From Ischnura elegans (Eukaryota; Arthropoda; Insecta; Odonata; Coenagrionidae), in assembly GCF_921293095.1 (NCBI RefSeq), contig NC_060251.1, forward strand, positions 40,777,644-40,841,643: a stretch of 64,000 nt of DNA, in the 5' to 3' direction. Within the stretch, counting starts at the first letter, position 1. Each line of letters begins with the position of its first letter. The notes below the pieces were generated by a model, which had not been told where the DNA came from, did no database searches, and worked only from the letters and a program-made list of their open reading frames with translations. A program made the translations under genes and the position numbers. Positions 8,970 through 48,300 of the stretch are shown piece after piece.

Positions 8970-11900
8970 ATGGTTCTCAAAGTAATTCAGGTGACCAATA
9001 TCCCCATGCAAGTCACAAAAGACCAAATGTATACCATGTTTGGGTGCATAGGAGAAATTGAGGACATAAGACTCTATCCTACACTGTAAGAATATTTTAT
9101 GATCCAACTTCTTATTCTTTTCCATTGTTTTCATTACTTATATATTATGAATATTTCAGGAGAAGTATGGGGACTGCATTTGATTCAAGGATATGTTTTA
9201 TTAAGTACAAAAAGTCATCAAGTGCTGATCTGGCCTTTTACCTTAGTAACACACCATTGATGAATAGAACCCTGCAGGTTGCTCCTTGCACTGAAGGTAA
9301 GCACCAGTAGCTGAATAATATTGGGGTTTGCTAACCAATTGGTGTTGAAATGAAAACTAACGAATTACCAGTATTGTCTGTCAAACGACCTGCCTTAGGG
9401 GCCTGACATCAGCTAACCCATTGCTTCACATGTTAGCTTGTGAGGTGAGGCCTGTAGTGGATTTCATTAGATAGTCAGCTCATATTACCATTTTGACCTC
9501 TTTTTCACCCAATATGATGGATTGGATTTAAGTTTTTCTCAATTTAGTTATATTGTTGCTTAAAATTTGTGAGAGGTAGATAATCTTTCTTTATGCATAG
9601 TTTATTGTTGATGAATTTTGTGATGTGATTGCATGTATACAAAGATCCCTATCTTCATGTTTTTCACGTGATGGAAAGTGCACTCATGAAATATTACCAA
9701 TCGGAAACTGAAATATTTCTTAAACTAGAGCTTAGGCATTATTAATAAGACCTTCTAGACTGTGCCTATTACCCCGGGAATTAACTCATACTTCAAGAGG
9801 AATGTGATACCCTGCTGGTGGAAGGACCCAATGGAGAGATGATTTTACATGTCTAGGGACTGCAATGATGAGGTGATTGTGTCTCTGGCTCTTATGGAAG
9901 TGGGCTCAATATTTAGTCTCTCACAGACGTTTTTATCCCTAAGCCCTGGTTTCCAACAACAATGCATCCTTGCCTGCATGTTGCGCTATGACTTACCGAT
10001 CAGATGCCTCTAAGGGATCTCTATGCTAATGGTTTCCAGCTGTTGTGGCCGAAGGGGGGCACAGTTGTACTGCATTGTCACTGAGTGGTATCTTAGGCAG
10101 GAGTTGGATTGTGGGAAACTTGTGTATGAGATTGCATTGTGCAATGTCTGATAATTTAGTTTCCGGCTCCCCCCAATGGTTTGATGTGTCCTCGCAAACC
10201 ACTTCTCCTGACCTGTGACAATGCCCTTGCTTATCACATGGCCACCGATTCATGGCTTTTGGAAACCAGCTCTTTGGTTGGCATTTTCATTGAGGAAATA
10301 CATGCTTTTAAGAACAAAAGTGGAATTAAGTTTTGTTTTTAAACAAAAAAACAACACTTTATTTCACCTGCACAGTTTTTTTTATTTGCACAAGAAATTT
10401 TCACTAACTCTTGGTTAACTATGTGGTATTCCATTATTTCCTGGATATAAACAGTTACTTATACCACTTATTTTATAAGAGCGCGACCCGGGTTTCAATG
10501 AGTAATCATCATCATCAGGCGCTCTATGATGATGATGATTACTCATTGAAACCCGGGTCGCGCTCTAAAAAATAAGTGGTATAAGTAACTGTTTATATCC
10601 AGGAAACAAGAAATTTTGCTAATCACCATGTCTTGTCCCCCTTCATTTAATTTTCTTCTTCGGGCTGACAAAAAACCTTCTTCTCTTCTTGCTGTCCATG
10701 AATCCTTTTCTTCTCCTTCCACTTCATATCTTACCCAATATCCTTCTCTATGTCATGGTTTCCTCTTCATCCACCATGTATAGATCTTCTTCATTCTCTT
10801 TCCTTTTTGTCAATATCATCTTTATGGTCTGTTTGCCTCCATTTTCAATTCCTTTACTTACATCTTCAAAGTCTTTACTCACCTACCATCCTTTCTGTCC
10901 GTGTTCCCACTCTTTAAAACCTAAATCACTATACATATACGCTTGACCATGCACAAGTCCGATTATATAAGCAAGTAATCAAGGGCTTCTAAATGTCGAG
11001 CACGGTGTGATTCAGAGCTGTTTCGTACCAGGTTGATGAAGTCAGGAAAATAAATATCAGGACTAGTAGTCATGGAAATGTGAGAAAAATTATATTATAG
11101 TTCGGGAAAAACTCCAAGAGGAACAACAAAAAGAGTCGTAGTTGAATGTGTGGAGCATAACTGCATTTGAGAGGCAGGTTGGCATTTTGATGTCAGTGTG
11201 GCGGGGTAGCACAGACTTGACCCTCCTTGACTTCATTACTATGTACTTACTACTAGACGTAATTTCTTAGTATATGTTGGTGCATTTTGCTCTAAAATCC
11301 CTTAACACAACTTCTTTGACATTTGTATTAAGACTGAAAATCAGGAAAAAGTTGGGGAAATCGGTAATGGAAAGGTGGTGTAAATGCTGTAAACCTTATG
11401 CTGTCCTAGTACTAGTGGCTGGTTTGTTTTTTCTCATCATTGGTGCAGTCTTAGTTTCATTCATGCTACCAGCTGGCCCTAATATCCGTCAACCAATGAA
11501 GTATGCTTTTTGTCATGCTTGAAATGTGCCTGTCAAATTTTTATACCAACCTATTCATTGCATTCATCGAAAAATAAAGCTTCCCTTCGTGACACTGCAG
11601 CAAAAGCTTACAAACTTTGTTAAATTTGTGTCATGATATTTATTCAAGTTTTCTTCTATTGCAGCTGATGAGAAAGGTGTTATTCCCTGTGAAGAGAAAG
11701 GATTAGAAATCCTTGTGGAAGAGAAACAGAAAAATCTTGGACTCACATTCATGGTGAGAGTCTTAAAAGTTCAAAATTTCATGTTTGAGACTACATATTT
11801 TTATGTAAAATTTTAACAGCTCATGAACATATCATGTTACTGCAATGTCTCATGTTCTATTTTAAGCTGAAAATAAATCTAGAATTATGTAATACGTATG

Positions 11901-14900: not shown

Positions 14901-17900
14901 GTTAAGTTCTTAATTTTGACTCTGTTACTCTCATATGGAGTATTGCATATTAATTTTTCCTAGCTTGATGGAAGTGTTTATCGATTCTGGTATCTTTTTA
15001 AATTTTCAGAGTTTACCACTCAGTGCAAGCTATTGAGGTAAATGACAACTCACTGGCTGATATTCATGAATTGACAAATGAGAAGTTGACATCTTCGCTG
15101 TCAGAGTACATTGAAAATGTTTTCCCTACTGAGAAATCAGGTGAGCCAACAACTGTTATTAACATCTTTTATATTTTAACATAATTTTCTCGTAGTCTTG
15201 AAATCAAGCTTGAAAATAGTGAAAGCTGCTTAAATAATTTTTCAGGTCATAGTACTGTCCTTCATTTTTATGTAATATGCATTGCTTTAAGGCCTGGTTG
15301 CATGCATGGTACCTTAACATGTTTGAGTATGTTTAAATGCATGTATGTGAGAATAAAAATTTAAGAAGGATGAGTCCGTTCTTAAATTTTTTCGGTTCTC
15401 GGCCCCGGTCCTTTTCTCCCCCATCGGTTCTCGGTTCTCGATACTTGGTTCCAATGATGAACTCTTAGTATCTGAAGTAATGGCAAATTAAAATGAACAA
15501 CCACAAGAAGTGAATGAAAATAACTTCGCTAAAGATGTAAATTAGCTGGAAATCTCTGTAAAAAAAAAACTTAACATCGTCTCCATGGTTTTATTTGCCT
15601 AGTAAAAAAGTTTAAATAAAACATTGTTAATGAATGCATGATCGACCAATGTGTCACATTACGTCAGTCAGCCCCCGGTTCTTTCTCTTGGTTTTGATTG
15701 TAAAAATTCAACATTTTTGCCCTATCTAGGTCTAATCTATTCTGTTTTTTGGCAGATATATTGCCTGCAGTATTAAACAGGCATTCACTGAAAACTGTAG
15801 TGGTCGATGTTGGTTTGAAAGGCCGCGCTAATATGCTTGGAACACCGTTTATATACTGCATAGCATGAGGATCAATATTGAAACCCCTCCTACATCTGAC
15901 GACATCATCAGTTAATTTGTTGTTACTTGTGAGCCAGTTCAAAATATATTCTGTATTCTGCGATGTGGCTTGAAATGTTAATGTAACTGACAGCTTATTC
16001 GTATCCTTCTCAGTCACAGTTCTTATAACCTCAGCAATAAACTGTTCAACATGCAGGTACAGCGGCACCATGGATGAACTGAGTGGCTGTGAGCTAATGC
16101 AAAATTGTAATGCAGTGTTGCATTCTGCAGGATAACATCGCTTTTCAATGCCTTGCGTAGGTTTATCAACTTACGAACAAGCTCTCGGAATGCATCTTGC
16201 TTGTATTTGGAAGAATTACTGTATATGTCCGTATCAAGCCATTCAAGGCACCGCACATGGTGTTGCAGAGAGTAGTCTTGTTTAAAGCCGCCTGAATTTC
16301 ACTTGTACGGCGGCTGGCAGAAAGTCCAGCTTATTAAAACAACTTGTCTTTTTCCACACTATTTTATTTTCACCGACCATGGTTTCGGCAACTTGTGTCA
16401 TTGTCAAGGTACATAGCCTTGGGTTACAGGCTTTTTATAGGTTTTTCAGGAGGGGGGAGGAAGAAGGGGAATGGGGTGTGTTCATTCCGAGGTTGCTGAT
16501 GACGTCAATGGGCGATGGGTTGGAGGTAGGGTAATGTTCAGCAGGGGTGAATGGAATGGGAACATATGGTCGTTACATAATTTAAAATCAGCGGGGCAAT
16601 TCACAATTTCAAACTGTTCTAAGAAATCCAGTTTCCGCCCCTTGTCATGTACATGTAAAATTTTTGCATCAAAATTGCACCAATGGTGTTCGTCATTCAA
16701 ATGTCTTGCAATTCCTGATTAGTCGTCATTATTTACGAAATATCATCTATGTTCTTTCATTCTTGTTTTAAAACTCCTCCCAGTCTGGCCAATATATTTG
16801 GTTTCACAATCGTCACAAGTCAGTTCATACACTCCACTTTTATTATCATTACAATATGCGTCTTTAGAGTTAAACAATAATTTACCTAGTGTCAATGGAT
16901 TATAAAAAGCCACTTTAGTTTTGTCATTTGAAATAATCTTGTCAAGTTTAAAAGAAATTTTTTGGATAAATGGTATCTTTCACCAGTTAGATGGTTTGTC
17001 TCTATTCTCTGGTTTGTGGGCTATCATATTGAGGGCTCTTTTCCGTCTATAACATTCTAAGAGTCTGTTTATCAAAACTGTGTCGAATCCATTCCTTCTC
17101 GGAATGGTTTTGATGGCGTTTAACTCTAAGTTGAAATTTTCTACGGACATTGGTATGTTTGTTAATCTGTTGATAATTGCTTTGAACGAGCTTATTTTGT
17201 GGGAGGGATGGTGGTTAGAAGAGTTGGGAATTATAACGTCCGTAAAAGTACTCTTACGGTAGATTGAGTAATCGTGATAGCCCTTTTCAATGGAAATGCT
17301 TAAATCAAGGAAGTTGATATTTTTGCCTCCATATTCTATGATGAACTTAATTGATTTGTGAATTGAGTTTAAAAGGGACAAAAAACCATCTATCTGACGA
17401 GAGGTACCTGACCACAACATAAAATATCATCAACATACCGATACCAATAACAAACATTCTTTAGCAGGGGATTTTTGGATTTGAACAGGTTTTGCTCTAG
17501 ATTGGCTATGAAAATTTCCGCTAGAATTGGTGATAATGGTGACCCCATAGCCAGACTAGTCTGTTGTTTATAAAACTTCCCATTATATAAAAAATAGTTC
17601 TGATCGGTACATGTATCTAAAAGTAACTTAATTTCATTCACCAAGGATGCATTTAGACCAGAATCTTTTAGTAAATTAGCCGCTAAGGTACATGCTTCTT
17701 TTGCTGGTACTGAAGTAAACAAATTACACACATCAAAAGATAAAATCTTAGCGTTAGGTGGAATTTGTTGTTTTAATAAGCTGAATATAAAAGATTTCCA
17801 CCACATCACGCCAGACACTGTATCTTTTATGGCAAAAAGTCGTTTCGTCTGAAAGCGGCCTCAATGTAGCATTGTGTGCATTTCATGCTGTAGACGGCAC

Positions 17901-20900
17901 ATCGCCGGGCTGGATTGAAATGGGCACCGTGCTGACAACAACGTGATGATACTCATTTGAAGACATCCATAGAGACCTATATAGGTTGAAAGGACGTTGC
18001 CGTGCCGTGGACGGCGGCAGGCGAACATTGCTCGTTTGAAAGTGAATGCAGCTATGGAAATGTTACAATATTGGCGAGAGCGACAAATTAATGAACCTTT
18101 AAATGTGCCTGTTAGTGAGCAACTCTCAAAAGAAAAAAATGTTGCCGCCATGCAATCGGAAAGTAATACATGCATTTTTTAAATCTTTATTTTTCACTTT
18201 TTGGCCTTGAATACGCTGCATAATATTCCGGCTTCGGGTGCCAAGATCAATGCCTCGCCACTGTTTCAAGCTGGTTCCAAAGTACTGACTTTATGTGATC
18301 AGTTCTCAATACCGGTTCCACAGGCTAAAAACTGGCAGTACCGAGAATCGAATACCGGAACCGACCCATCTCTAGTCTCCATTCTGCATCCGGCATTCAT
18401 GGTGGTCGGACGTGTGTAGCTCTGTAGCCTAAAGCGTCTATACATGTGCCTTAAGTTGTCTGCATATTGTGATTAAAACGTATCACGTAGCACTAATCAA
18501 CAAACACTAACTATTTACGAACTCACAAAGCAATTTGAAATCTTCATGAAGTGCAACAAGTGTGAAGAAGATATTGTTGACGAGGAGTTCGTCAATTGTT
18601 ACGGCTGCTCGTCAAGAATTCACTTCAACTGTGCCGGCATCAGAGAGTCGACATATAGGTCTATGTCCTCGAAGAAAAAAGAGGCTTGGAGATGTGTTAC
18701 CTGTCGTTGTGCTGAGAATTCAAAGCAAAATGAGCAAAGCAGAAATCCACCAGCTGCATCCGTAGAGGCTCAGCCAGCTGAGGAACAACAAGAGAGCTGT
18801 TCCACTGATGCTGTTCTCACGAGGGAGGATGTACTACAAATTAAGAAGAGTCTTACCTTCCTCAGCCACGGCTATGATGAGTTTGTGAGTACCATAAATG
18901 CTTTTAAGAACACTGTGGGTGAGCTGAATAACACTATCAGTGACCTAAAAGAACAACTTAAACAGAAAGACACTCTTATTTGTGATCTCCAAAAGAAGGT
19001 TAACCGGTTGGAGCAAAAACAGCTAGAAAACCGCTTAGAAATTGTGGGTATTCCCTTGGGTGATAGTGATAGCAGTGAGCTCCTGACTGCTAAAGTTATC
19101 GATGTTGCCAAGGATGTTGGCGTTGTAATTGATAGCAGAACTATATCTGAGGTTTTCGTCCTTCCTAAGGCTAAAACAAAGCTACAAAAAATCGTTGTTG
19201 AGTTTAACAGCAAAGTTGTGAGGAAATCTCTTTTAATCAACAGAACCTCCTTGAACAGCCCTGAGAACAGGAAAAAGTACCCTAATGCAAAAATATACAT
19301 CAATGAAAGTCTAACTCCTTATCTCAAAAACTTGATGTGGCAAGTTAGGACTAGGGCTAAAGAACTTGATTTCAAATTTGTCTGGTATAGAAATGGTGGA
19401 ATACTTGTCAAAAAAAACGAAACCAGCCGAATAATTAAAGTGGAAAATGAAAATGACCTATGTAAATTGATATAATATATATTTCAATTGATTATATTCC
19501 TGTTTCTTATTACTGATTTTGTTATTGTCATTAAGTATTTAACACTATAAGACACATTAAGTGTTCTATCTGTTTGCTGTTGAAATTGAAAGATCTTTTG
19601 GCATCATGGATCCATTGTCATCAATAGCTAGTGATGTTGAATGCAAATCCTATGAGAGCACTGGTGGTTTCTTGAATAATGTAAATTTGTTTAAAGGTTG
19701 TATTTTTTGTTCGTTGAATGTGAGGTCATTGAAGAAAGGTTGGGATGAAGTAAAAGTATTGCTCAATATGCTGAATAATAGGGGTCAGGTATTGGCATGT
19801 TTGTTGACTGAGGTCAATATAAAATCATCAGAAATGGGTCCTTACAACCTACTAGGTTTCAACTCTTTCCATAAACTGAGGGAAGAACGAAAGGGTGGAG
19901 GTATGATTGTCTTTCTGAGGGAGGTCTTGCCTGCAACGGTAGTTGATTTCGAGTTGGACGAATGCGAGTCATTGATCTTGAAAATGGTTTATGATTCTAA
20001 CACAGTGTTATTAGTATGTGTTTACAGACCACCACATTGTAAGAAGAAGGATTTCCTCATTAGTCTGGAATCCTTCCTCGAAAGTAGATCAGAAAACCAG
20101 ATTATATTGATTGGTGACTTTAATTTGAATCTAAAATCGAAAAAAGATACTAATGTGGACGCATACAAAAATTTACTTGCATCCAATGGGCTCACTGCTT
20201 GTATCACAAAAAGCACTAGAATAGAAATAAAAAAACGTAAAGTGACAGCTTCATGCTTGGATCACATTAACGTTAAAGGTTTCCACTCAAAACTTGATGG
20301 TTTCATTATCAAAACAAAAATATCTGATCACTTTCCTGTTGGTGTTTTCATACACACAGATAAGAGCTTACCTGAAGATAAGGTTATGGGACAATCTACT
20401 CATCTTTGCGACCGGAGGGTAACACAATTAATAAACAGAATAAACTGGTCGACACTACTTACACTCAATGATTCTGACAGCATTTATCAGCAACTGTGCG
20501 AAAAGTTAAATCATCTTTATTCATTATCTAAAATCAGGCAACGGGAAAATATCGGTAATAATACATTTAAACTTCCGTGGATGAATAATGCTATTTATTC
20601 AGAAATACAGATAAGAGACACACTATTCAAAAAATACAAATCCAATACAACAAACAAAGTGCACAGAAATAATTACAGAACCCAAAGAAATAAGGTAACT
20701 TCCTTGATAAGGCGATCTAAAATCTCTTATGTTCGCTCTAATCTCGAAAGGAACAAAGACGACATTAGGAAGACTTGGCTACTGATCAATAGCCTTAGGG
20801 GTGTCACCAGTAAGAAAAGCATTGATATGCAAATAAAATCAAATTTTAAGAATATTAATTTAAACTATGTCTGCGAATCCTTTGCATCTCAATTCACTAA

Positions 20901-23900
20901 TGACATACAAAAAATACTGCCCCAATGCTCACAACACATTCTCAACCCTGGTGCTAAAAAAATAATTCCATCTACCTTTTTATTGTTGCCAGCAACTCCA
21001 GCTGATATCCAAAGTATATTACAGCAATCAAAAAATAAATGCCCAGGGCACGATAATATAAGAATGATCGATCTCAGTTGTAAACATGACATCATTGCTG
21101 CAACAACCCACTGGATAAACAAAAGCATAACTGAAGGTAAATTACATAACGATTTAAAGTTAGCGGTAATCAGACCGATATATAAACAAGGAAAGAAAAA
21201 CGACACAAACAATTATCGTCCCATTTCTATTCTACCCTCCTTGGATAAAGTCATAGAAAGATATTTTGCGGTACAATTAATTAACTTCATAGAAAAATTC
21301 AACATTATCACTACACATCAATATGGGTACCAAAGAAATAAAAGTGCACGATCGCTTCTGGAGTACTTCAGTGAAGATGTACGGAAAAGCCTAAATAAGA
21401 ACTGGTCCGTTCTCGCTGTATATATCGACTTCACTAAAGCTTTCGATACTATCGATATCAACATCCTTTTAAAAAAACTGGAACGATGTGGAATACGAGG
21501 AATACCGCTTACATGGTTAGAAAGCTATCTCACCAATAGGAAATTACTTGTAAAATTATTTGAACATAAGAGCACGATTAAATCTGTCACCTCTGGTGTG
21601 CCACAAGGCTCTATATTAGGGCCAATACTCTTCTGTATATATGTAAACGACATACCAGAATATATTAATCATTCTAAAATATATATGTATGCTGATGATA
21701 TAGCGCTAGTTTCAATCAGCAAATCTTTTGAAATGGCTAAGGAAAAAATGCAACAGGATTTCTATGCGATACAGTGCTGGTGCCATGACAATAAATTAGT
21801 AATAAATGATAAGAAAACGGTAACCATGCAATTCCGAAATGCCAAGGCAACGAGAAAACTAATAAAATTAAGATTTCATACGCATTTATGCCTTCATACT
21901 GGTAACCCTGGCCATAAAAAGAGTAACTGTCATTTATATTCCTGTTCATTTATTTCCCAAGTCAACTCCTTTAGATATTTAGGATTGACCGTAGACGAAA
22001 ATTTTGACTTCAGTGAGCATATTAATCACTTGTGTAATAGACTTAGATGTATTTTGTACCAACTATATTGTGTGAAATATACCTTACCAATTCAATTTAA
22101 AAAAATGTTGTACTTAAGCCTCGGTGAAGCAGTACTCAGATATGGTTTATGGGGCTCCACAAATAAAACCCTGTTGAGAAAGGTGGAAAAAATCCAAAAC
22201 AATATGGTATTACAATTGGATCCAAGAGAAAGAAATGTCTTTAAAATTTACAAAAATCTAAACATGCTTCCAATACGCGATTTATTACACTACATATTAA
22301 TAACAGACAACTATTTTAACAATAGCTACAAAACTGTAAGAAATGTAACACACGATATAGGACTCCGAAGTACTAGAATATATAATGTACCTAGTTTCAT
22401 CAACGCTCACGGGAAAAGAACCTTGGAACACGTAGTTCCTAAATTGTTTAATACGCTACCACAAAATTTGCAATCAATAGAAAATATTTCTCTACTAAAA
22501 ACGCGTCTGAGACATTGGTTACTAGAGAAATATAATGATACCGATATATGAGAATTATGTTTGCTTATGTGATAATACATTTATTTCTTTGTCTTGTATG
22601 TATGTTAAAAATTTGTTATGTTATGTACACATGTTAAAAATTTAATGACATTATACTACTAAAAATGTTAAACATTGTTTTGTTAAAAACTTATCAAAAT
22701 TTATGGTTTAAACATGTATAAAGAAAGATACATATATTTTGTCTTTATTTTGTCACATATATAATTTCTTTCTTCCAATACGAGAAATATCTCAAATGCA
22801 AACACGTTATATATTTTAAAAAAAAATTTAATACATATATTCCTGTAATGTTAATGTGTAATTATGTATGTACTCTTGCTCCCTAATAATTCTATAATAT
22901 GTTTTTGGCAATAGTGGAAACATTATTAGTGAGAATTCATGTTTGCTAATGTGATAATACATTTACTTTCTTTTTTGCTTAAAGTTATAAGTTACTGTTA
23001 CTACTCAGTTATATAAGTTTTATTATAACCTTTCCTGCTACCATTTCTAATCTCTGCCATTAAATTTCTTATATTATAAAAAAGTCTATTGTTAAAAAAT
23101 TTTATTACATTATATTGCTAAAAATTTTAAACATTGTTTTGTTAAAAATTAACCTAAATTTATGGTTTATACATGTATAAAGAAAGATACATATATTTTG
23201 TCTTTATTTTGTCATATATATTTTTTCTTTCTTCCAATACAAGAAGTAACTCCAATGCAATCACGTTATATATCAAAAAAAATATTTAATACATATATTC
23301 CTGTAATGTTAATGTGTATTTATGTATGTACTCTTGCTTCCTAATAATTTTATAATATGTTTTTGATAATAGTGGTAACATTATGAGATACACAATTTTA
23401 AAAGACAATGTACGACCACGAATAAAAAAAAAACTAATAGGCACCTGCTGACAAGCCTTGATAGGCTTAGCGGGACCTAGACTTTTTTTTCACATTGTAT
23501 TTCTTGTAAATGACATTTCATCTTTGATTAATGTTATCAATTTTTGTAAAATTTCTAATCTCTGCAATAAATATTATTATTATTAAAAAAAAAAAAAAAA
23601 AACTTATGTGTACAGTGGAAGTTAAAGCGAGTACGGGCTATAGCGACACCCCCGCTATTACGAGAGATAGCCGATGCACCGTTAATTGACCCTATAATAA
23701 GCGTGTTGAAAAATTCGTTTTTACGAGACCCTTTCGGTGTTGGCTGTCGCCATAGCGAGGGTTTCACCGCCGGAAGACTTTCATCAAGACTCCTTAACCT
23801 CTGTAATTGCTAGCGATCTGTTAGAAATGAAGTTAATGGAGTGCTCAGTCTGAAATGTATGTGGTAAACTGTCGTTCGATAAATATAATGATTCACGAAA

Positions 23901-26490
23901 CAATGCTTTGCATGATTTTTATTCAGTGCGGCGCTTATAAATTGTTTGAATAGTTAGTCGTTATTTGAGTAAGGAAATTTAGTGATGCAAAAAAAAAAAC
24001 GCCTTTCGTCTGGATTTATGCTTACGTTTATCGGATAGATGTTTATCTGTCGCCGCACCACTCCTGTTCCTGTATATCTGTTCGCAACAGCTATATTGGC
24101 TATTATTTGCTCCACCTCCGGTTAAGCGACAATTCGCTATAGCGAGTGTTTATCAGTGCACCGTGGGGTGTCGTTATATCGAGGTTGCACTGTACATGAA
24201 AGCCAGTCACATGCAATTAATTATAACTCTTATTTTTTACTTTTCAGGATTCCACAGATCAAGGTCTAGGTCTAAATCCTCGCGTGAAGGCTCAAAATCT
24301 AGAGACAATAAGTCAGGATCCAGTAGGAGGAGGAGAAGGTCAGCCTCTCGAGAAAGGCATTCGTCCAGTTCTCGTTATTCCAAGAGATCCAGATCCCATA
24401 GGAGCGGTAGAAGGTCAGGATCCCGGGAGCGTCGCTCTTCAAAATCTCGTGGTTCTAAAAGATCAAGGTCACCTGGTAGCAGGAAAAGATCACCATCTCC
24501 AGATTATCAACCTTCAAAATCAAGGGAGCGTCGCTCCTCAAAATCTCGTTCTAAGAGGTCAAGGTCGCCAAGTGCAAAGAAGAGGTCTAAATCTAAGGAG
24601 CGCAATTCATCTAAGTCAGGCAGATCATCTAGACCTAAGTCACCTGGAGGCAGGAAAAGATCAAGATCACCGAGTAGCAGAAAAAGGTCAAAATCCCGTG
24701 AACGTAATTCCACAAAGTCAGTCCGGTCATCGAAGCCTGGGTCACCTAGCAGTAGGAGGAGGTCAAAGTCTGGTGAACGCAGCTCCTCCAAACTTGTTAG
24801 GTCATCAAGGCCTAGATCACCTAGTGGGAGGAAAAGATCAAGGTCTCCCAGTTACAGGAGAAGGTCAAAATCTGGTGAGCGTTTCTCATCAAAGTCGGAT
24901 CGATCTAAAAGACCTAGGACTCCCAGCCGAAGAAAGAGGTCAGCTTCGCCCGGGGGCAGCAGGAAAAGGTCGACCTCTAGGGATCGTCGTCCCTCCAAGC
25001 GTGGTGATTCGAGGAGATCTAGGTCACATAGCATTGTGAAAGGTTCGAAAACAAAAGACAAGGGTAAGTCACGAAGTGGTCGGGAATCTAGATCACCAAG
25101 CAGGGATTCTAAGTCTATCAAAATCCCATCAAAGTCTAATGACCCTTGTGGTTCAAGATCACCAAGTGTGAGGAAGAGGTCCGGATCAGGGGAGTTCTCA
25201 CCAAAGAGAATTCGATCTCCAAGTTACAGGAAGTCAGCTTCAGTTGAGCGCAACTCTTCAAAACCTCCTAGCCCCAGGTCACCTCCTAGCATGAGAAGAT
25301 CAATGTCCAGGGAAAACTTACCGCCCAAATCTCCTTATGATTCAAGGAGATCCCCTTCTCCAAGTTGTGCTCGAAGACCAGACTCACGTGAATGTGGCTC
25401 TGCTGAAAGAGATGTTCGCCCAAAGAGCCACAAGAGATCTGCTTCACATGAACGTAGTTTGTCAGCACCCAGGAGTCCAAGAAGGTCAAGTTCCCGTGGT
25501 AGCATGAGGAGATCACCATCAAAGGAGCACCCTTCAAAATTTCCCAGTCGCAGAGAATCACAATCAAGGAATAGCCGGAGGAGTTCAGAATCAGAAGAAG
25601 GCCAGTCATCAAAGCCTTACAAGTCAAGGAGATCAGTAACGCCTGATCATCGCAGGGGACCTATGACACCTGATCGCCATAGAAGATCAACCACCCCTGA
25701 ACACCGTAGGAGATCTTTGACACCTGATCGTCTTAAGGGGCCTATGACTCCTGATCGCCGTAGAAGATCTATTACTCCTGATCGCCGTAGGAGGTCAATA
25801 ACACCTGATCGCCGCAGGAGACCATCTGAAGAGTATAGGATGATGGAGCATCGTGGTCCGAGGTCGTTGAATTCTCCTACTGACAGAAGGTCAACATCTA
25901 TGGAGATTCGCTCTCCAAAACCTCATAGTCCTAGATCACCGTCACCTGGCTTTGAAAGGAGATCATCATTAGAAGGATATCATTCAAGTTCACGTAACTC
26001 AAAGGCATTTGACATGCCTGGTAGGAATGATCGTATGATGTCCCCAGAACCTACTTCTCCTAAGTCTCCAAGATCTAGACCTGATTCCCCTCTTTACAAG
26101 GAAGGTTTTGTAGCAGAGGAGCGGTGTCCATTGCCCCATGGTTATGATAGATCTATATCACCAGTGAGCAGGCAACGGTCGGAATCACCTGAAAGTAATG
26201 CCTTCAGATCTCATAATTCTGCCATGTTGAGGTCACCTGGTAATAGGAGTTCACCATCTCCGGATCATTGTGCACCTGCGATACGTTTATCAAGCCGGCT
26301 AAGATCTTCAAATAGCAGAAGGTCGCCTTCTTCAGAGCATCAAACATCAGATTCTCACAAGGCAGGGAAATCACTGAGTGGCAGAAGAAGGTCTTCCTAT
26401 TTAGAGTGTAACTCATCATCATCTGGAAACTCAAGGCCAGGATCCCGTAACAGTCGCAGTAGGTCATCATCTCAGGAGAATCAGTATTAA
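8970..26490 (+). CDS. Two-RRM SR splicing factor, SRSF11/Srp54-like
   Basis: Predicted nuclear splicing regulator of 1013 aa. Coding exons: 8970-9085, 9160-9296, 11665-11753, 11935-12081, 12949-13127, 15010-15140, 24248-26490; phases 2,1,0,0,2,1 join without a break. The ATG at 8970 lies 7 bases after an acceptor, so an untranslated exon lies upstream. RRM1 (residues 1-85) starts KVIQVTNIPMQVTKDQM and has RLYPT and SRICFIKY, very close to fly Srp54 and human SRSF11. A linker with PPYPDLPENY and RRTLVVSNL leads into RRM2 (about 155-235) with GEVKYVRL, then VYHS as in fly Srp54. The last exon encodes an RS domain of about 740 residues, much longer than in SRSF11, with repeats such as RKRSRSPS and TPDRRRRSI. 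RRM1 is more diverged than in true Srp54 and lacks the usual EEAMKRVREAQ helix, so it may be a paralogue. Confidence 0.87.
10437..10606. repeat. 170-bp near-perfect palindrome
   Basis: The arms 10437-10517 and 10527-10606 are reverse complements except for a few bases near 10474-10480 and 10565-10572. The loop is the 9 bases 10518-10526 (GGCGCTCTA). It lies in intron 2 of the SR gene. Part of the left arm plus the loop, read on the - strand, forms a hammerhead ribozyme (separate entry). The long hairpin arrangement matches the inverted terminal structures of Penelope-like elements. Confidence 0.85.
10478..10526 (-). ncRNA. Minimal type I hammerhead ribozyme (predicted)
   Basis: Read on the - strand from 10526 down: AGAGCGC, then CUGAUGA, U, GAUGA, loop UUAC, UCAUU, GAA, ACCCGGGU, C, GCGCUCU. 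AGAGCGC and GCGCUCU pair over 7 bp as stem I; GAUGA and UCAUU form stem II with one G-U pair; ACCCGGGU is an 8-base self-complementary stem III ending in the cleavage triplet GUC (10487-10485). All conserved core bases are present apart from one extra U before stem II. Very short stem III, working as a dimer, is the known form in Penelope-like elements and retrozymes. Activity is inferred from pattern only. Confidence 0.68.
11367..11500 (+). CDS. Possible exon encoding a membrane anchor (weak)
   Basis: In intron 2 of the SR gene. An ATG opens a frame with Cys-rich start MERWCKCCKPYAV followed by about 22 hydrophobic residues (VLVLVAGLFFLIIGAVLVSF) and MLPAGPN, then a possible donor AATGAA|GTATGC. 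A short Cys-rich cytoplasmic start followed by one membrane segment is seen in CD36-type receptors, but nothing else of that family is visible. It could be the first exon of a nested gene, a relic, or chance. Confidence 0.2.
12114..12265. mobile_element. 152-bp hAT-type MITE with 8-bp target duplication
   Basis: Terminal inverted repeats CAGGGGCGGATCCAGG and CCTGGATCCGCCTATG. The 8-base duplication TCCTCACG stands at 12106-12113 and again at 12266-12273. Both features are diagnostic of hAT insertion. Runs of G near the right end form a C/G-rich block. Non-coding; it sits directly after the 12081 donor of the SR gene. Confidence 0.85.
13594..13828. mobile_element. MITE with AAGGCC ends
   Basis: The left end AAGGCCTGTTTGCAGGATAC and the reverse complement of the right end, AAGGCCAGGTTGCAGGAAAC, match with three differences and continue into ACATTAA. 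TTA occurs at both edges, hinting at a PIF/Harbinger-type insertion. A truncated relative with AAGGCCTGGTTGCATGC lies at 15290. Non-coding. Confidence 0.62.
14469..14712. mobile_element. Palindrome-rich MITE, CCATACACGT ends
   Basis: Left end GGCCTCCCATACACGTCC, right end GAACGTGTATGGTAGGCC, with TAA outside on both sides. A third copy of the end (GAACGTGTATGGTGGGCC) lies inside at about 14645, and the centre holds a strong palindrome around AAGGCCTGGACTGTGCAGTC. GC content is far above that of the flanks. Non-coding; in an intron of the SR gene. Confidence 0.65.
15371..18374 (-). mobile_element. Decayed hAT transposon, split by a Penelope element
   Basis: On the - strand, 16256-15664 encodes in two overlapping frames the C-terminal part of a hAT transposase: a helical region, then TTTVFSECLFNTAGNISAKK and RLDLDRAKMLNFYNQN, which correspond to the dimerisation motif (SERLFSAAGNI, then KKRNRL). 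At the right, CATCTCTA closes a terminus reading TAGAGATGGGTCGGTTCCGG on the - strand; at the left, related GGTTCTCGG repeats at 15400-15450 mark the other end. The N-terminal half of the transposase is missing or unrecognisable, and the frame is broken. The left boundary is approximate and no clean 8-bp duplication was found. Confidence 0.62.
16320..17819 (-). mobile_element. Penelope-like retroelement, 5'-truncated, RT plus GIY-YIG
   Basis: Read on the - strand. The reverse transcriptase part (17818 to about 17400) has LSFDVCNLFTSVP, QTSLAMGSPLSPILAEIFI and YRYVDDIL, the A, B and C motifs of the Penelope family. A frame change near 17410 continues with SIKFIIEYGGKNINFLDLSI and VYRKxT-like IYRKSTFTD. 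Further on, at 16860-16730, comes the GIY-YIG endonuclease (GVYELTCDDCETKYIGQTG) followed by a stop and then LNDEHHWCNFD and GRKLDFLEQFEI. The 3' end (16440-16340) carries the family tail with TTGCCGAAACCATGGTCGG. N-terminal RT motifs are absent, so it is truncated at the 5' side, as is common. It interrupts the hAT relic. Confidence 0.85.
18546..19475 (+). CDS. LINE ORF1 protein with PHD finger and coiled coil
   Basis: 309 aa. Residues 1-53 form a PHD-type zinc finger: CNKCEED, CYGC, HFNC and WRCVTC supply the C4HC3 ligands. Residues 95-165 are a long helical stretch predicted to coil (KEQLKQKDTLICDLQKK). The remainder (about 165-300) has the look of the RNA-binding and C-terminal domain of LINE ORF1 proteins, beginning RLEIVGIP and ending in a basic KNETSRIIKV region. 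In the family this protein binds element RNA. It precedes ORF2 by about 130 bases in another frame. The frame is unbroken. Confidence 0.85.
   Translation: MKCNKCEEDIVDEEFVNCYGCSSRIHFNCAGIRESTYRSMSSKKKEAWRCVTCRCAENSKQNEQSRNPPAASVEAQPAEEQQESCSTDAVLTREDVLQIKKSLTFLSHGYDEFVSTINAFKNTVGELNNTISDLKEQLKQKDTLICDLQKKVNRLEQKQLENRLEIVGIPLGDSDSSELLTAKVIDVAKDVGVVIDSRTISEVFVLPKAKTKLQKIVVEFNSKVVRKSLLINRTSLNSPENRKKYPNAKIYINESLTPYLKNLMWQVRTRAKELDFKFVWYRNGGILVKKNETSRIIKVENENDLCKLI
19606..22551 (+). CDS. LINE ORF2: EEP endonuclease and reverse transcriptase
   Basis: 981 aa from the ATG at 19606 (the frame is open further upstream, with a GTG at 19561, but no earlier ATG). The N-terminal third is an apurinic-type endonuclease: LNVRSLKKG, LLTEVNI, GDFNLNL and SDHFPVGVF. 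The RT spans about residues 480-790: RPIYKQGKKNDTNNYRPIS, YIDFTKAFDTID, SGVPQGSILGPILF and the catalytic YADDIALV. A basic C-terminal region follows. All catalytic motifs are present and there is no internal stop. It nicks target DNA and copies element RNA in place. The group could be CR1, Daphne or Jockey; a phylogeny would be needed. Confidence 0.9.
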   Translation: MDPLSSIASDVECKSYESTGGFLNNVNLFKGCIFCSLNVRSLKKGWDEVKVLLNMLNNRGQVLACLLTEVNIKSSEMGPYNLLGFNSFHKLREERKGGGMIVFLREVLPATVVDFELDECESLILKMVYDSNTVLLVCVYRPPHCKKKDFLISLESFLESRSENQIILIGDFNLNLKSKKDTNVDAYKNLLASNGLTACITKSTRIEIKKRKVTASCLDHINVKGFHSKLDGFIIKTKISDHFPVGVFIHTDKSLPEDKVMGQSTHLCDRRVTQLINRINWSTLLTLNDSDSIYQQLCEKLNHLYSLSKIRQRENIGNNTFKLPWMNNAIYSEIQIRDTLFKKYKSNTTNKVHRNNYRTQRNKVTSLIRRSKISYVRSNLERNKDDIRKTWLLINSLRGVTSKKSIDMQIKSNFKNINLNYVCESFASQFTNDIQKILPQCSQHILNPGAKKIIPSTFLLLPATPADIQSILQQSKNKCPGHDNIRMIDLSCKHDIIAATTHWINKSITEGKLHNDLKLAVIRPIYKQGKKNDTNNYRPISILPSLDKVIERYFAVQLINFIEKFNIITTHQYGYQRNKSARSLLEYFSEDVRKSLNKNWSVLAVYIDFTKAFDTIDINILLKKLERCGIRGIPLTWLESYLTNRKLLVKLFEHKSTIKSVTSGVPQGSILGPILFCIYVNDIPEYINHSKIYMYADDIALVSISKSFEMAKEKMQQDFYAIQCWCHDNKLVINDKKTVTMQFRNAKATRKLIKLRFHTHLCLHTGNPGHKKSNCHLYSCSFISQVNSFRYLGLTVDENFDFSEHINHLCNRLRCILYQLYCVKYTLPIQFKKMLYLSLGEAVLRYGLWGSTNKTLLRKVEKIQNNMVLQLDPRERNVFKIYKNLNMLPIRDLLHYILITDNYFNNSYKTVRNVTHDIGLRSTRIYNVPSFINAHGKRTLEHVVPKLFNTLPQNLQSIENISLLKTRLRHWLLEKYNDTDI
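22549..23388 (+). repeat. Tandem duplication (about 380-bp period) in the LINE 3' UTR
   Basis: Unit 1 begins with GAGAATTATGTTTGCTTATG near 22550 and unit 2 with GAGAATTCATGTTTGCTAAT near 22931. Both contain GTATAAAGAAAGATACATAT, TCCTGTAATGTTAATGTGTA and TATGTATGTACTCTTGC in the same order. Unit 2 is longer because of an insertion of about 60 bases (22980-23090). Identity is high but not perfect. Confidence 0.85.
23613..24192. mobile_element. 580-bp TA-flanked MITE just upstream of the RS exon
   Basis: Ends CAGTGGAAGTTAAAGCGA and TATATCGAGGTTGCACTG, flanked by TA at 23611-23612 and 24193-24194. Inside each end CTATAGCGA recurs. This is the common arthropod CAGTGGAACCTC end of Tc1/mariner or pogo-related MITEs. 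It ends only 55 bases before the RS exon acceptor, so it sits where branch-point signals are expected. Confidence 0.75.
25638..25820 (+). repeat. Coding tandem repeat in the RS domain
   Basis: Seven units of 9-10 codons centred on TPDRRRRSI or close variants (TPDHRRGP, TPDRHRRST, TPEHRRRSL, TPDRLKGPM, then three near-identical). Thr-Pro sites give it a proline-directed phosphorylation pattern distinct from the Arg-Ser repeats around it. The last three units are almost identical at DNA level, suggesting recent expansion. Confidence 0.8.
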
Positions 26491-28808: not shown

Positions 28809-31710
28809 CCGTCAACTGGGGTAACTTTGGCCCAACTTTCCCAACTTTTTGTGAAACAAACAAGTTTCTACCAATTTATTTGTGATGAAAATTGCTTTTA
28901 AGTTTTCTAGTTATTATTGAATTATGTGCCTTAAATTTAAGCATTAGTTTAAGTCTCTAATAATTTTCCTAACCTAGATTTAAAAAATTTAAAAATTGGG
29001 ACAAAGTTACCTGGGATTGGGGTAACTTTGTCCCAACCATTAAAACCTTTAAAATTTAGTACCATATTGTAAGTGGAGTAAAGTTACCCCATACGAGATT
29101 CTTTTCAAGTATTCAATTCTAAATTTTACTTGTTTTTTTGATTTAAAACTTTATGATTTGGACAAAAAATGTGGAAAAAGTAAACAAACTGTTACACTTA
29201 AAGAAAACCTCACTTTATTGTTATAAAAGGAAGTTAAAACATGTTTAAACCCTAAATAATTTTATATTTGCTTGATTAAACAAGTTATTCCACGAAATTG
29301 TCTAGTTCTGGGACTGTGAACTGGTTCCTCTTTGAAGCTACTTTAGGAGGATTTATTTTTGCCCAAACGTCATCCCAGTCATAGTCCATGCAGTCTTGCT
29401 TCTCAGGCCAGCGCCAGAATTTTAGTTTTTTTTCCATGCACTCAACTACTGGGCCATGATCAAAAAAGCTTACTATTTTGCCAGGGTACTTTTGTCCATT
29501 GTAGATCACAATTACAAAGTTATCAACGGCAAAATCTTCTGCTTTCCATTTTTTTTTTGTTTGAGCAGTAGGTTCGTCTTTCTTAGATTCTTCCTGAAGG
29601 TCTTCCATGTCTGAAAATGATTCACTCACTCCATCTGACTCTAACATCATTTCCACATCATCTTCATCCGAAGAAGAATTGTAAGACTGTTTAGGCTTCT
29701 TCTTGGGAACATTTTCTTTCTTAGAATTTGAAGAGGTGTGCTTTGACGAAGAGAGTTTATTGGTTGCTTCTAAGATAGATTCTTCGACATCCTTAACTGA
29801 AACACTCTTTCCTGCAGGCACTTGCAGCTTCCTCTTTCTCTTTTTGGGGCCATCTTTCGTCAAGTATTCAGCTCTCTTTTTCTCCAGTTGCTCAAGAAAG
29901 GCTTCTCCTATTACTGTGTTGTCAACCGGTTGGTTTTCTGGCAGCCTGTCTAGTAGTTTCTGTTTATTAAAAGGATGGATTCCACACTTTTCAAATCCAG
30001 CCTTCAGGTTTCCTACTTGATTTTCTGCTAAAGTAGCCATTAACTCTTTTAATAGAGTCGGAAATGCATCCTTTGGAATGGTTGTGAACTTAGAGCCAGA
30101 AACAGACTCTTTCCATTTGCTTAAGATTGCTCGCCATGATTTTTTCATGGGGGAAAAGAAGGCCACATCTAAAGGTTGGGTTAGATGGGTGGAGTTCGGT
30201 GGTAAGCAGACAAATTTAACATTATTTTCTTCACAAAGCCTAAGTACATTTAAACTAATGTGTGAAGACAAGTTATCCCCAATAATAACTTTTGGCCCAC
30301 TTTGAGTTCTCACGTGCGCTAAGAACAATGACTCAAACCAATCTTCAAAACACATAGCATCAAACCAGCCACTTTTAGAACGATTATAACGAGCCCCTGC
30401 TGGTCCATTCTCAGTCCAAGTTGACCACATATTATCTGCCTTGTACACAACATAGGGGGGAAGGAGAGTCCCTGCAGCATTTCCAGAAAACATCAGAGAG
30501 GTCGCACTTTTACTATTATTGCATATGTTTTCCACATATTTAGCTCCCCTCTTGCAAATAACCTTTTTGTTTCCAGGGTCATCCGTAAGATTGGTCTCAT
30601 CGTAGTTCCAAATATGAGTGGCAGGAACGTTTTTGATCACTTCTTTCAGGTTTTCCATGTAGCTTTCGATGTCTTTAGCACCAACTTCAGCTCTTACTTT
30701 TTTTATGTTAGAGCTGAGACGACTTGTCAGCTTCTCATGCCTTTTCAAAAACGATTTGGTCCATTCGTAGCCAGGGAGGTTTTTATGAAACTTATCTATT
30801 ATGACACCTTTCTTATCTAAATAGCATTTTACTGCATATCTGAAATCAGTCTCAACAACTGGAAATCCATAGTCGGACAGTATTATCAAGTACTTTTCAA
30901 AAGCCAGCTCTTCTTCATCGCTAAATATTCTTGCTCGACCAACTGTATTCATGTGCCTGCCTTTCAATTTGTTCTTAATTGTAGATCTAGGAATGCCATG
31001 CCTTATTTCTGCAGCTCTTTGTGTTAATTCACCTGCTCGTATAGCCTTAAGACATTCCTCCAATATTTCTGGTTTGTAGTTAGCATAATTTCTAGTCCCA
31101 AGTGGTTTTATCCGGTTTCTCGGCATTTCCCCTGCAGCAAAACACACAATTGTAATTATACACAGTTTAACAGGGATATTCTGCAATTTTTTTTTAGCAT
31201 CTTGAATGAATAAATAACAGCAAAAAAAATTTCTACCACAAATAAACAAACAAATATACCTCGGGGTAACTTTGGCCCAGCCACCATGTTGGGCCAAAGT
31301 TACCCCAAATCTGGTACAAAGTTAAACTAACCTACAAAACTCATCTCAGTTTGTAAACTATAAACATAAACAAATAGTTGTATTGATATTAAGTTAAACA
31401 AAGGATTACAGTAAAAGAAAATTCACTTACCAGCTCTCAACCGCTTTAAAATAAGAACGAGGTAACAAAAGTTGGAAGACAACAGAATCCAGCACTTTTA
31501 CAACACCAAGATGAAGCAGCACTGCAGTGGTGGTGAAAAGTGTAACTAAACCCAGGTTGGCTCAGAAGTGTGGCCAGTGTTGCCATCTATCAGGAAATGC
31601 TAGAACTAAGTCAGTAAATCAACCTATATGTCAAAATACGGTACATTTAAACTTTTTCTAGTTTTGGGCCAAAGTTAACCTCAAAGGGCCAATGTTACCC
31701 CAACTGACGG
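28809..31710 (-). mobile_element. Complete pogo/Tigger-type DNA transposon
   Basis: 2902 bp. Terminal inverted repeats: CCGTCAACTGGGGTAACTTT at the left and, reverse-complemented, CCGTCAGTTGGGGTAACATT at the right, with TA outside both (28807-28808, 31711-31712). TA duplication plus a psq-type helix-turn-helix and DDE_1 transposase places it in the pogo part of Tc1/mariner. The motif GGGGTAACTTTGGCCCA is repeated inside both ends (about 29017, 29084, 31262, 31291, 31664), likely transposase-binding sites. It lies between the SR gene and CRYZL1. Confidence 0.9.
29285..31126 (-). CDS. Pogo-type transposase (HTH_psq plus DDE_1)
   Basis: 613 aa from MPRNRIKPLGTRNYANYK. I chose the ATG at 31126 because a splice acceptor (TTTTGCTGCAG) lies 10 bases upstream and the longer open frame begins in intron-like sequence; a donor GCTG|GTAAGT near 31433 would complete a 5' UTR intron. 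Residues 10-60 form a psq/CENP-B-type helix-turn-helix (ELTQRAAEIRHGIPRSTIKN). The DDE_1 domain shows NYDETNLTDD, IIGDNLSSH and THLTQPLDVAFF, giving all three acidic residues. A Lys/Ser-rich linker leads to a C-terminal module (DFAVDNFVIVIYNGQKYPG, then WPEKQD) seen in some insect pogo-like transposases. The frame is unbroken, so it may be active or very young. Confidence 0.88.
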   Translation of the reverse strand: MPRNRIKPLGTRNYANYKPEILEECLKAIRAGELTQRAAEIRHGIPRSTIKNKLKGRHMNTVGRARIFSDEEELAFEKYLIILSDYGFPVVETDFRYAVKCYLDKKGVIIDKFHKNLPGYEWTKSFLKRHEKLTSRLSSNIKKVRAEVGAKDIESYMENLKEVIKNVPATHIWNYDETNLTDDPGNKKVICKRGAKYVENICNNSKSATSLMFSGNAAGTLLPPYVVYKADNMWSTWTENGPAGARYNRSKSGWFDAMCFEDWFESLFLAHVRTQSGPKVIIGDNLSSHISLNVLRLCEENNVKFVCLPPNSTHLTQPLDVAFFSPMKKSWRAILSKWKESVSGSKFTTIPKDAFPTLLKELMATLAENQVGNLKAGFEKCGIHPFNKQKLLDRLPENQPVDNTVIGEAFLEQLEKKRAEYLTKDGPKKRKRKLQVPAGKSVSVKDVEESILEATNKLSSSKHTSSNSKKENVPKKKPKQSYNSSSDEDDVEMMLESDGVSESFSDMEDLQEESKKDEPTAQTKKKWKAEDFAVDNFVIVIYNGQKYPGKIVSFFDHGPVVECMEKKLKFWRWPEKQDCMDYDWDDVWAKINPPKVASKRNQFTVPELDNFVE

Positions 31711-45300: not shown

Positions 45301-48300
45301 AATTCATTTACAACTACCAGTGCTTTCCAATAAAATACCAACAGAGGTTATGGGCCCAGCACTGGTAAATTATAAGAAGTAAGTGAAGTCTTCATAATGT
45401 CGTCTGACGCATCCGGTATATCGTCTCACATTAAGCCGTTGTGTGGGCGTGAAGGATATCCAACTTGGAAATTTAAGCTGAAGGCGTATTTAATAGATCA
45501 AAACTTGTGGCATGCTGTTGATGGATACCCAAATGATGATCATACTGATGCTGCTTCAAAGTCCAGGAAGGATGAGCGTGCCCTAGCTAAGATTTGTTTG
45601 TGCGTGGACGATTCCGCTATCATACATGTAAGAAGATGCAAAACAGCTGCTGAAGCATGGAAAGTTCTTGCCGATGCATATGAAGATAAGGGTTTTGCCC
45701 GGAGACTTAACCTTCAAAAGACTTTGTACCGGTTATCCCTCGGAGATTATACGTCCATTGAAGAGTACCTAACTGCCGTAATGGATACCGCTCAGAAGCT
45801 TGCTGATATTGGGAAGGAGATTCCTGATGAGGATTTAGTTGCTATTTTGCTTGGAGGTCTTCCTTCACATTACGACCCCCTAGTAATGGCACTCGAGAAT
45901 TCAGGAGTTGAAGTAACGGTGAACATGGTGAAAACTAAACTCTTAAATGAAATGTCCAAAAATGATGGTGCAACTGAGACTGCATTTGCATCCAATGCGT
46001 CTCGAACTATTCCGAAGAAAAAGAAGTTCCCGAAACGCAACAACTCTCAAGATGGTATCGTCTGCTATGGATGCAACCAACCCGGCCATAAAAAACCAGA
46101 CTGTCCAAACAAGACCAAGAAAACGGCACAGACATCGAGTTCAACCCACAAGCAGCTACACAAGAAACAATACACTTTATTCTCGGATTTAGGTGTTGGT
46201 GGTTGTGCTCAAAGCAATAAAAATGATTGGTTTGTGGATTCCGGGGCAACTGCCCATATGACTCCTCATAAAGATATTCTGTTCAATGTTAAAAGTAACT
46301 CTGGTTTGGAGATTGTGTGTGCTGATAAACGTAAGTTGCAGAGTGACAGTATAGGTGATGTCATGATTCACAAAAGTAATAACAACAACAGTATTAGTAG
46401 TATTTCTGAAGTTGTTCATGTGCCTAATCTTGCTACAAATCTTATATCTGTGTCAAAATGTGTTTCAAAAGGTTTTGTTGTAGTATTTACGAAAGAAGGT
46501 GCTAAATTTTTTCATGATAATGATTGTAGTATTTCAGGGAATGTTTTAATGACTGCTCTTCCCAGTAACGGGTTATATAAGATAGAGTCACAGGTATCAG
46601 AAAGGTCCCTGGCTGCTACAACTAACCCTTCTCAGCAAACTCTTTGGCATTGGAGGTTGGGACATCTCTGCCGCTATGGTATGAATCTACTGAGAAATGG
46701 ATTAGCTGATGGAGTTGATTACGCCCCTGAGGAAAATAGAACTGTATGTACTGCATGTCTAGAAGGGAAACAGAGTCGAGAACCTTTTCTTAAAATCAAA
46801 AGTAAAAGGGCGACTAAATGCCTAGAGTTGATTCATTCTGACCTCTGTGGACCATTCAGTGTAAAATCATTAGAAGGAAATAAGTATTTACTTGTATTTA
46901 TAGACGATTACTCTAGAATGATATTTACCTATTTCATTAAAACAAAAGATCAAGTTAGAGTAAAGTTTCAAGAGTTTAAAAACCTCATGGAAAAGCAAAC
47001 TGGCCAGAAAATTAAAATTTTACGATCAGATAATGGTTCTGAGTATGTTAATAGGGAATTCTCAGATTATCTTAAGTCAGAAGGAATTATTCACCAGACT
47101 TCCATACCCCGTACTCCTCAGCAAAATGGTGTTGCTGAAAGGGGAAACAGAAGCATTGTGGAGAAGGCTCGTTCCATGTTGCATAGTGCCAGACTACCTA
47201 AGTCATTTTGGGAAGAAGCTGTGAGAACTGCTACGTATCTCAAGAATAAATCACCTCATAGATCCGTTACAGGAATGACTCCAGAAGAAAAATGGACAGG
47301 TGAGCGTCCCAACTTGACACACTTAAGAGTATTTGGCTGCCGAGCTTTTGTACATATTCCAAAGGAGGAACGCAAGAAGTGGGATAGCAAAAGCAAGGAA
47401 CATATATTTGTAGGATATAGTGAGAATAAGAAAGCTTACAAATTTAGGGATCTTTCTAATTATATGAAGGTAGTCCATGCTGGAGATGTTGTGTTTTTAG
47501 AAAATAATTTTTCCGGTGAGAGCAGTACTGATGCTCAAATTCCTTTGGATTCTTACAATGAAAATGCAGATTCAACAAAAGATGAAGCTGCGGCTGCTGT
47601 TAAAATTCTTTTGGATTCTCCTTGTGAAAATGCAGACTCAACAGAAGATAAAGCTGGGACTAATGTTCAAGAAACTGCTAAGAGTCCTAGATATCCTCAA
47701 AGGGTACGTAACAAGAAACAATTTCCTGATCATGTTGTTTTACAAGCAAAAAATTTCTTTGACAAAGAACCTACCACATTTGAAGAGGCTATGCAAAGTG
47801 AAGACAAAGAGCATTGGATGAAAGCAATGATGGAGGAATTAGAGTGTCTTAGAAAAAATGAAACTTGGAAGCTAGTGCGAGTTGCAAATAAAAGTGTAAT
47901 ACCATGTAAATGGGTTTACAAATTGAAAAGAGACAATGGTGGTAAGATCATCAAGTACAAAGCTCGTTTAGTTGCTAAAGGTTTTGCTCAAACTCATGGT
48001 ATAGACTTTGAAGAAACTTTTTCTCCGGTAGTCAGAGGTTCAACTATCCGTTTGCTGTTGGCTATGGCAGCAGAACTGAATCTTGATGTTGAACATCTGG
48101 ATGTCGAAACTGCTTTTTTAAATGCCACTTTAGATGAAACCATCTATATGACACAACCAGAAGGTTTCATAGCTGTAGGTGAAGAGAAGAAGGTTTGTCT
48201 ATTACAGAAGTCTATTTATGGACTCAAGCAGGCTAGTCGTGCTTGGAACAAAACAGTTCACAAGTTATTGTATGAGATAGGGTATATTAAATCAAAACAT

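Follow-up and report, generated by a model that had tools for sequence, protein, structure and literature searches.

The protein of Poseidon (PAc), a Penelope-like element (PLE) of the lizard Anolis carolinensis, cuts and extends both strands in purified form. Reverse transcription starts at two adjacent internal sites with the tail between them, and the hammerhead of the element overlaps the start codon, according to the accessible part of the report (PMC11167929). For bdelloid rotifer Penelope families, the available text of a second report describes inverted pseudo-long terminal repeats (pseudo-LTRs), target-site duplications (TSDs) of 8-10 bp, a tail of ~31 bp on one inverted pseudo-LTR and palindromic junctions (PMC3846280). 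Minimal hammerheads in PLE pseudo-LTRs are mentioned in accessible passages of two further papers (PMC6155905, PMC7229834). The sequence studied here is a 49-base motif on the minus strand at 10478..10526 of a window from Ischnura elegans, by which we mean the whole stretch of 64,000 nucleotides that was analysed (contig NC_060251.1). Judged from its letters, it is a dimer-type hammerhead ribozyme sequence from a PLE, an additional case of a known type. We read the locus, with a probability of about 0.85, as a small PLE insertion that would have been made by priming on both strands and that consists of two 5'-truncated pseudo-LTRs placed head to head, with a type I hammerhead of the dimer type in each, shortly upstream of the likely start codon.

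As far as the PAc report was accessible, the I. elegans family resembles PAc in its reverse transcriptase (RT) and GIY-YIG protein, the pseudo-LTR, the hammerhead near the start codon and the tail between two starts. It differs in its ATG, which lies downstream of the hammerhead and within the tail. The rotifer families share with it the inverted pseudo-LTRs, the TSDs, the one-sided tail and the palindromic junctions, whereas the available rotifer text calls the tail optional and interprets the insertions as self-priming; here, exactly one tail was found in all 48 pairs. Known PLE hammerheads, in the parts of the literature at hand, have the pseudo-LTR position, the type I order and a missing or minimal helix III in common with the motif, but the window copy differs from them in lying in a head-to-head palindrome. 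A dimer design is also shared: Cervera and de la Pena reportedly described minimal PLE pseudo-LTR hammerheads with such a design in 2014. Animal retrozymes, in the available portion of their description, are similar in the type I hammerhead, in dimer action (in amphibians) and in being small TSD-bearing elements (PMC7229834). In contrast to these, the motif here comes from a coding PLE and not from a tandem non-coding unit.

The motif and the insertion that carries it

The initial annotation had listed a 7-bp stem I, CUGAUGA, a stem II, GAAA and GUC on the minus strand, and all of these are present in the letters. Read directly from 10526 down to 10478, the 49 bases are U-AGAGCGC-CUGAUGAU-GAUGA-UUAC-UCAUU-GAA-ACCCGGGU-C-GCGCUCU. 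They follow the type I hammerhead order (CUGANGA...GAAA...UH, three helices around the core), with helix III formed only between two molecules. The parts are arranged as follows.

10478..10526, minus: hammerhead-like ribozyme sequence, predicted cleavage 3' of 10485, from the model R1 described below and the dimer fold
10525-10519 with 10484-10478, minus: stem I, AGAGCGC with GCGCUCU, 7 bp
10518-10511, minus: core CUGAUGAU
10510-10506 / 10501-10497, minus: stem II, GAUGA / UCAUU, 5 bp, loop UUAC
10496-10494, minus: GAA
10493-10486, minus: self-complementary stem III ACCCGGGU
10485, minus: C of the predicted cleavage site (GUC)

An extra U (10511) stands between CUGAUGA and stem II and is common to 56 of the 58 modelled cores of the genome. 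The textbook hammerhead has no such U at this place. Judging by the overlap with the start codon, the lizard core may have this U as well. In the accessible parts of the PLE hammerhead literature examined, the extra U is not named as a lineage-wide feature, although no search was aimed at it.

The initial annotation had suggested that the 49-base RNA be folded as a monomer and as a dimer. For the single copy a fold of -13.5 kcal/mol was predicted, in which the first two stems are likely and stem III is absent, and two copies were predicted to co-fold at -40.1 kcal/mol into a double hammerhead. In this predicted dimer, 8 unpaired core bases, stem II and three bases are followed by an 8-bp intermolecular stem III, one base and an inter-strand stem I. 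The 5-bp stem I form of the family was predicted to form a double hammerhead as well (-31.7 for the dimer vs -11.3 alone). The predicted co-fold bears out the claim that the self-complementary stem III is suited to a dimer.

The motif is placed at the apex of a palindrome with arms of 46 and 44 nt that are complementary to 96% and 95%. This palindrome, described initially as intronic, is no independent feature of the host; it proved to be the head-to-head PLE insertion itself, with a 12-bp TSD and two pseudo-LTR copies.

10390..10401, no strand: left TSD ACAAGAAATTTT, exact 12-nt match to 10606-10617, of which the last 2 bases could also belong to the end of the element
10402..10605, minus: whole PLE insertion, a head-to-head pair of truncated pseudo-LTRs, bounded by the TSD, with more copies in the genome; the unit flanks the RT/GIY-YIG open reading frame (ORF) in copy L045
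10402..10436, minus: the tail, at one end only, equal to the PLE ORF start (MEYHIVNQELVNF...) in copy L045
10437..10517, minus: tail-bearing pseudo-LTR arm, which contains most of the hammerhead in the active sense
10518..10526, no strand: junction (GGCGCTCTA) between the arms, which supplies extra stem I pairs here; its centre varies among 22 aligned copies
10527..10605, plus: tail-less pseudo-LTR arm, hammerhead core without C3 at the junction; R1 matches an interrupted core at 10511-10571 plus (25.3 bits)
10606..10617, no strand: right TSD, 12-nt match

A repeat search, in which 40 of 1,468 candidates were scored (80 rows), gave 30 loci, of which 22 were distinct after the removal of 8 that repeated the same place on the opposite strand. 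With at most 3 mismatches, the 38-base inner palindrome pattern matched the genome 596 + 595 times (1,191), and the control 0 times. Direct repeats of 9-16 nt flank 22/22 distinct copies, and one end is longer in all 22, reading ...CCAGGAAA on one side and ...CCAGGAAATAATGGAATACCACATAGTTAACCAAGAGTTAGTGAATTTT or near it on the other. The initial annotation had named the GUC and the pairing of stem I as features that copies in the genome should keep. GUC was kept in 21/22 plus arms and 21/22 minus arms; the length of stem I was not kept, with 7 bp on the better arm of the window copy, 5 bp in 16 copies, 4 bp in one and 2 bp in four. The 7-bp stem I is therefore present as described, but it is private to the window copy among the 22 compared, the others having at most 5 bp.

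In longer copies, these arms enclose coding sequence. In L045 the order is unit, ORF and unit in direct orientation; the ORF, which has one internal stop, matched RVT_1 (2.5e-07) and GIY-YIG (2.8e-06), and over its first 446 aa there was no Pfam match. The first ATG of this ORF lies inside the tail, downstream of the hammerhead. Since PLE coding sequence lies between the arms of the longer copies, the repeat unit is a pseudo-LTR. Other copies are 5'-truncated PLE bodies placed head to head with independent arm lengths (in L043, L044 and L046-L050 both arms reach the ORF). The features of PLE membership, 5' truncation, inverted pseudo-LTRs, a short tail and a TSD, were all found. The window copy has no ORF and is the extreme case, with both arms stopping near the ribozyme.

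Folding of the 209-nt transcript of the window element gave a predicted -135.9 kcal/mol and a probability of 0.0 for the ribozyme pairs, because the arms pair with each other; a 183-nt version was folded as well. These predictions suggest that the window copy is most likely inert as a ribozyme.

The remark that no reverse transcriptase lies nearby was misleading, as the motif is in a PLE pseudo-LTR and an RT is found in the window at 17390-17818 minus, ~6 kb off. The latter belongs to a fragment of a different PLE family at 16363-17818 minus (RVT_1 5.4e-09 at 17390-17818). Relatives of this fragment occur elsewhere with a protein identity of up to 92%, and a decayed hammerhead is seen near its 3' end at 16363-16419 minus (R1 28.4 bits).

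Hammerhead cores across the genome

The motif was searched for with the Rfam models. At the gathering cut-offs no hammerhead match was obtained in the 64-kb window, and at E<=10 over 401 nt none of the 25 rows was a hammerhead family. The best rows were microRNA families under the cut-off (MIR5380, 62.2 bits vs a gathering score of 150), which appear because of the long hairpin. When RF00163 was run over the genome (73 candidates scored), the motif family was not matched. RF00008 (68 candidates scored) did not match it either, but control genomes were without an RF00008 match too, so this result is uninformative.

We then built a model, R1, whose 58 rows were similar cores from other places in the genome, leaving out the family of the motif. 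R1 matched the window site at 10473-10530 minus with 47.9 bits (E ~2e-11 in 64 kb) and both pseudo-LTRs of L045 with 48.7 bits, where the E-values are rough and the scores partly shared by construction, since the rows had been selected by the same core letters. The lack of a significant Rfam match had been set out as a refutation of the ribozyme; that match is indeed lacking, and the refutation is overturned by the comparison with other copies and cores of the genome. Rfam hammerhead models can overlook a core lineage in which the extra U is present and stem III forms only in the dimer. A weak R1 match at 100-141 plus (11.9 bits, E 1.1) is probably due to chance.

The cores came from the pattern CTGANGAN{4,14}GAAACNNNNGTC, into which the standard core of the window family does not fit because of its length. 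This pattern matched the genome 4,923 times, compared to 84 times for the reversed pattern, a 58-fold excess. The sample was taken from the matches listed (~100 of 4,923, less six late ones) and comprised 99 rows, some of them repeated, at 88 loci. Of these, 89 had the standard length, 77 were distinct with their flanks and 59 had distinct cores; L130, a relative of the window family, was excluded, which left 58 for modelling.

The general form of the 59 distinct cores is CTGANGA-T-(5-bp stem II, 3-nt loop)-GAAAC-NNNN-GTC. Stem II was paired in 252/295 cells, whereas shuffles reached a mean of 180 and a maximum of 205, and the pairing was much lower without the extra U in register or when the register was slid. 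NNNN was self-complementary in 39/59 cores (CCGG, CATG, CGCG, CTAG). Across the 58-row alignment, 85.6% of the cells were paired vs 71.2% in the shuffled rows, 127 cells had changed on both sides vs 46.1, and the covariation score was 0.454 vs 0.207; none of the three was reached in 500 shuffles (0/500 each), which overstate independence as the aligned rows are related copies. Slid-register controls paired in just 24-44% of the cells. The covariation of stem II is supported, but stem I does not go clearly beyond its column composition.

One tail per head-to-head insertion

Head-to-head pairs were collected from 55 places, which gave 47 pairs, 22 from the repeat search and 25 from matches of the inner pattern, and 8 places that were not simple. 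For the inner-pattern pairs, places in the first, listed part of the 1,191 matches were used at which a minus and a plus match were close together or separated by 0.9-2.4 kb; eight single matches from one contig were added. Among the non-simple places, L033 repeats L045, L043 and L059 have one tail by BLAST and were not counted, and L042, L045, L055, L056 and L060 are without two standard ends.

Exactly one tail was found in 48/48 head-to-head pairs (46 of the first 47, together with L054 and L038). In the 46 pairs the tail was on the left in 24 and on the right in 22. L054 seemed to be two-tailed, but its left pseudo-LTR continues into the ORF and the far end is tail-less, with a 15-bp duplication. 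Terminal direct repeats 9 nt or more in length flank 46/48 pairs (not L051 and L078), compared to 4/369 mismatched flanks. If the two ends were chosen independently, exactly one tail would be expected in at most half of the pairs.

In other families, 7/10 head-to-head copies had repeats of 11-12 nt, and the distances from the ribozyme to the two ends differed by 42-47 nt. The exceptions were L084, which is ambiguous, L082, which has no repeat, and L083, where just 9-nt repeats inside the arms were seen. L081 has a second 12-nt repeat inside the arms, for which the difference is 0.

The arms often end near the 5' edge of the ribozyme: 66/95 arm ends were between -18 and +7 of CTGATGA, in a sample that is biased to short palindromes and with palindromic centres that blur the ends. 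In L054, a full-length arm begins at 2243 directly after the predicted hammerhead cleavage site, which is a single case.

A strict one-tail rule was not found in the literature searched, where few queries named the tail and most subscription papers were outside the coverage. The rule is possibly new.

Origin of the insertion and other elements of the window

To account for these insertions, we propose that the protein of the element would make staggered cuts on both target strands and that each cut end would prime reverse transcription of the element RNA. Two RNA start sites ~40 nt apart would be used, one yielding the tail and the other none. The two complementary DNAs (cDNAs), whether they reach the RNA 5' end next to the ribozyme, come close to it or terminate at another point, would then be joined where they stop, and the target duplication would be a product of the stagger. 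The ribozyme of direct-repeat copies would act as a dimer with the cores paired through ACCCGGGU; in the window copy the arms would pair mutually and most likely leave the ribozyme inert. We infer that cDNAs may end at the RNA 5' end as a strong stop. We lean slightly towards the stricter view that every head-to-head PLE insertion represents two starts, one per cut strand and obligatorily at different RNA sites, as if each half of a protein dimer owned one of them, and that the short palindromes are double 'strong-stop' insertions. For the way in which PLEs integrate, the thousands of hammerhead-type matches in the genome provide a clear statistical signature, with a single tail in each insertion, arms of variable length and joins that are often near the ribozyme. 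A two-strand, two-site priming model thereby becomes testable with purified protein.

Several observations weigh against this reading. The motif was recognised by no Rfam hammerhead model. Stem I was paired in 77.0% of the cells, its innermost pair was present in 44/59 cores vs 44.7 expected from independent columns, and the next two pairs in 51 vs 47.3 and 42 vs 35.1; this weakness may come from the many copies among the rows that are truncated at the junction. The count of pairs changed on both sides was ordinary (8 vs 7.3 shuffled, 202/500). When the sequence around the 3' pseudo-LTR of L045 was folded as a 240-nt monomer, no stem I pair had a predicted probability above 0.096. Insertions that end at the predicted cleavage site were few, with 5 matches vs 0 and 2 at the neighbouring positions tested, and in 3/5 the exact end is blurred by a common palindromic GAGCGCTC junction; with such numbers, cleaved RNA cannot be put forward as the template. 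In the accessible part of the PAc report, the hammerhead did not cleave without the protein and was dispensable for insertion in vitro, and the start sites were alike on the top and bottom strands in bulk, so they give no backing for a strand rule (PMC11167929).

Self-priming on an antisense template is, in addition, a published alternative for head-to-head PLE copies, put forward for rotifer PLEs from palindromic junctions in the text available (PMC3846280). The palindromes would then arise from template switching or snap-back of a single cDNA, and palindromic centres are found in the short palindromes here too. This explanation needs an extra rule for the exactly one tail in 48/48 pairs, and in L043, L044 and L046-L050 both arms enter the ORF with independent lengths. 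We regard it as unlikely, though as the most probable of the alternatives.

A chance resemblance is very improbable; the hammerhead would then be an accidental combination of TGA repeats, a hairpin loop and a GC palindrome. This reading would fit with the missing Rfam match, with CTGATGA being part of a TGA repeat, and with the private 7-bp stem I and the weak covariation of stem I. It does not account for the 58-fold excess in the genome, the covarying stem II, the self-complementary stem III in 39/59 distinct cores, the E-value of ~2e-11 from a model that excludes the window family, or the location in a PLE pseudo-LTR, where hammerheads have been published. Just as improbable is a retrozyme, a small hammerhead element without coding sequence that is mobilised as circular RNA. 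The insertion is short, non-coding and TSD-flanked, with the type I order and a self-complementary stem III; however, in other copies the arms continue as coding sequence of the PLE, tandem units with cleavage sites as their borders were not seen, most ends are away from cleavage sites, and the ends adjoin the PLE start codon, like the published PLE tail. Least probable is a foldback DNA transposon (miniature inverted-repeat transposable element, MITE) with a ribozyme-like apex, which would suit a long palindrome of ~200 nt in many copies, but the TSD length (9-16 nt in 22 copies) and the T tract are variable and the tail is one-sided where a fixed TSD and symmetric ends would be expected, and the 5'-truncated RT/endonuclease bodies between the same arms already refute it. 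An initial reading as a MITE or as an RNA polymerase III short interspersed nuclear element with a T tail was dropped, since the longer copies contain PLE coding sequence.

Further features were noted in the window. The initial annotation had placed the motif in an intron of an SR gene, which is likely the RS-rich ORF of 775 aa at 24163-26490 plus. For this host gene the insertion probably means little, as the copy is predicted to be folded shut. A non-LTR retrotransposon lies at 18546-22551 plus, its first ORF being zinc-finger-like by eye and its second encoding an endonuclease-RT of 996 aa. An open frame at 29285-31297 minus encodes a transposase of 670 aa, which contains DDE_1 and Psq-type helix-turn-helix domains and which we take to be pogo-like. 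An open 1296-aa Copia-like polyprotein, as judged from its translation alone, is encoded at 45397-49287 plus.
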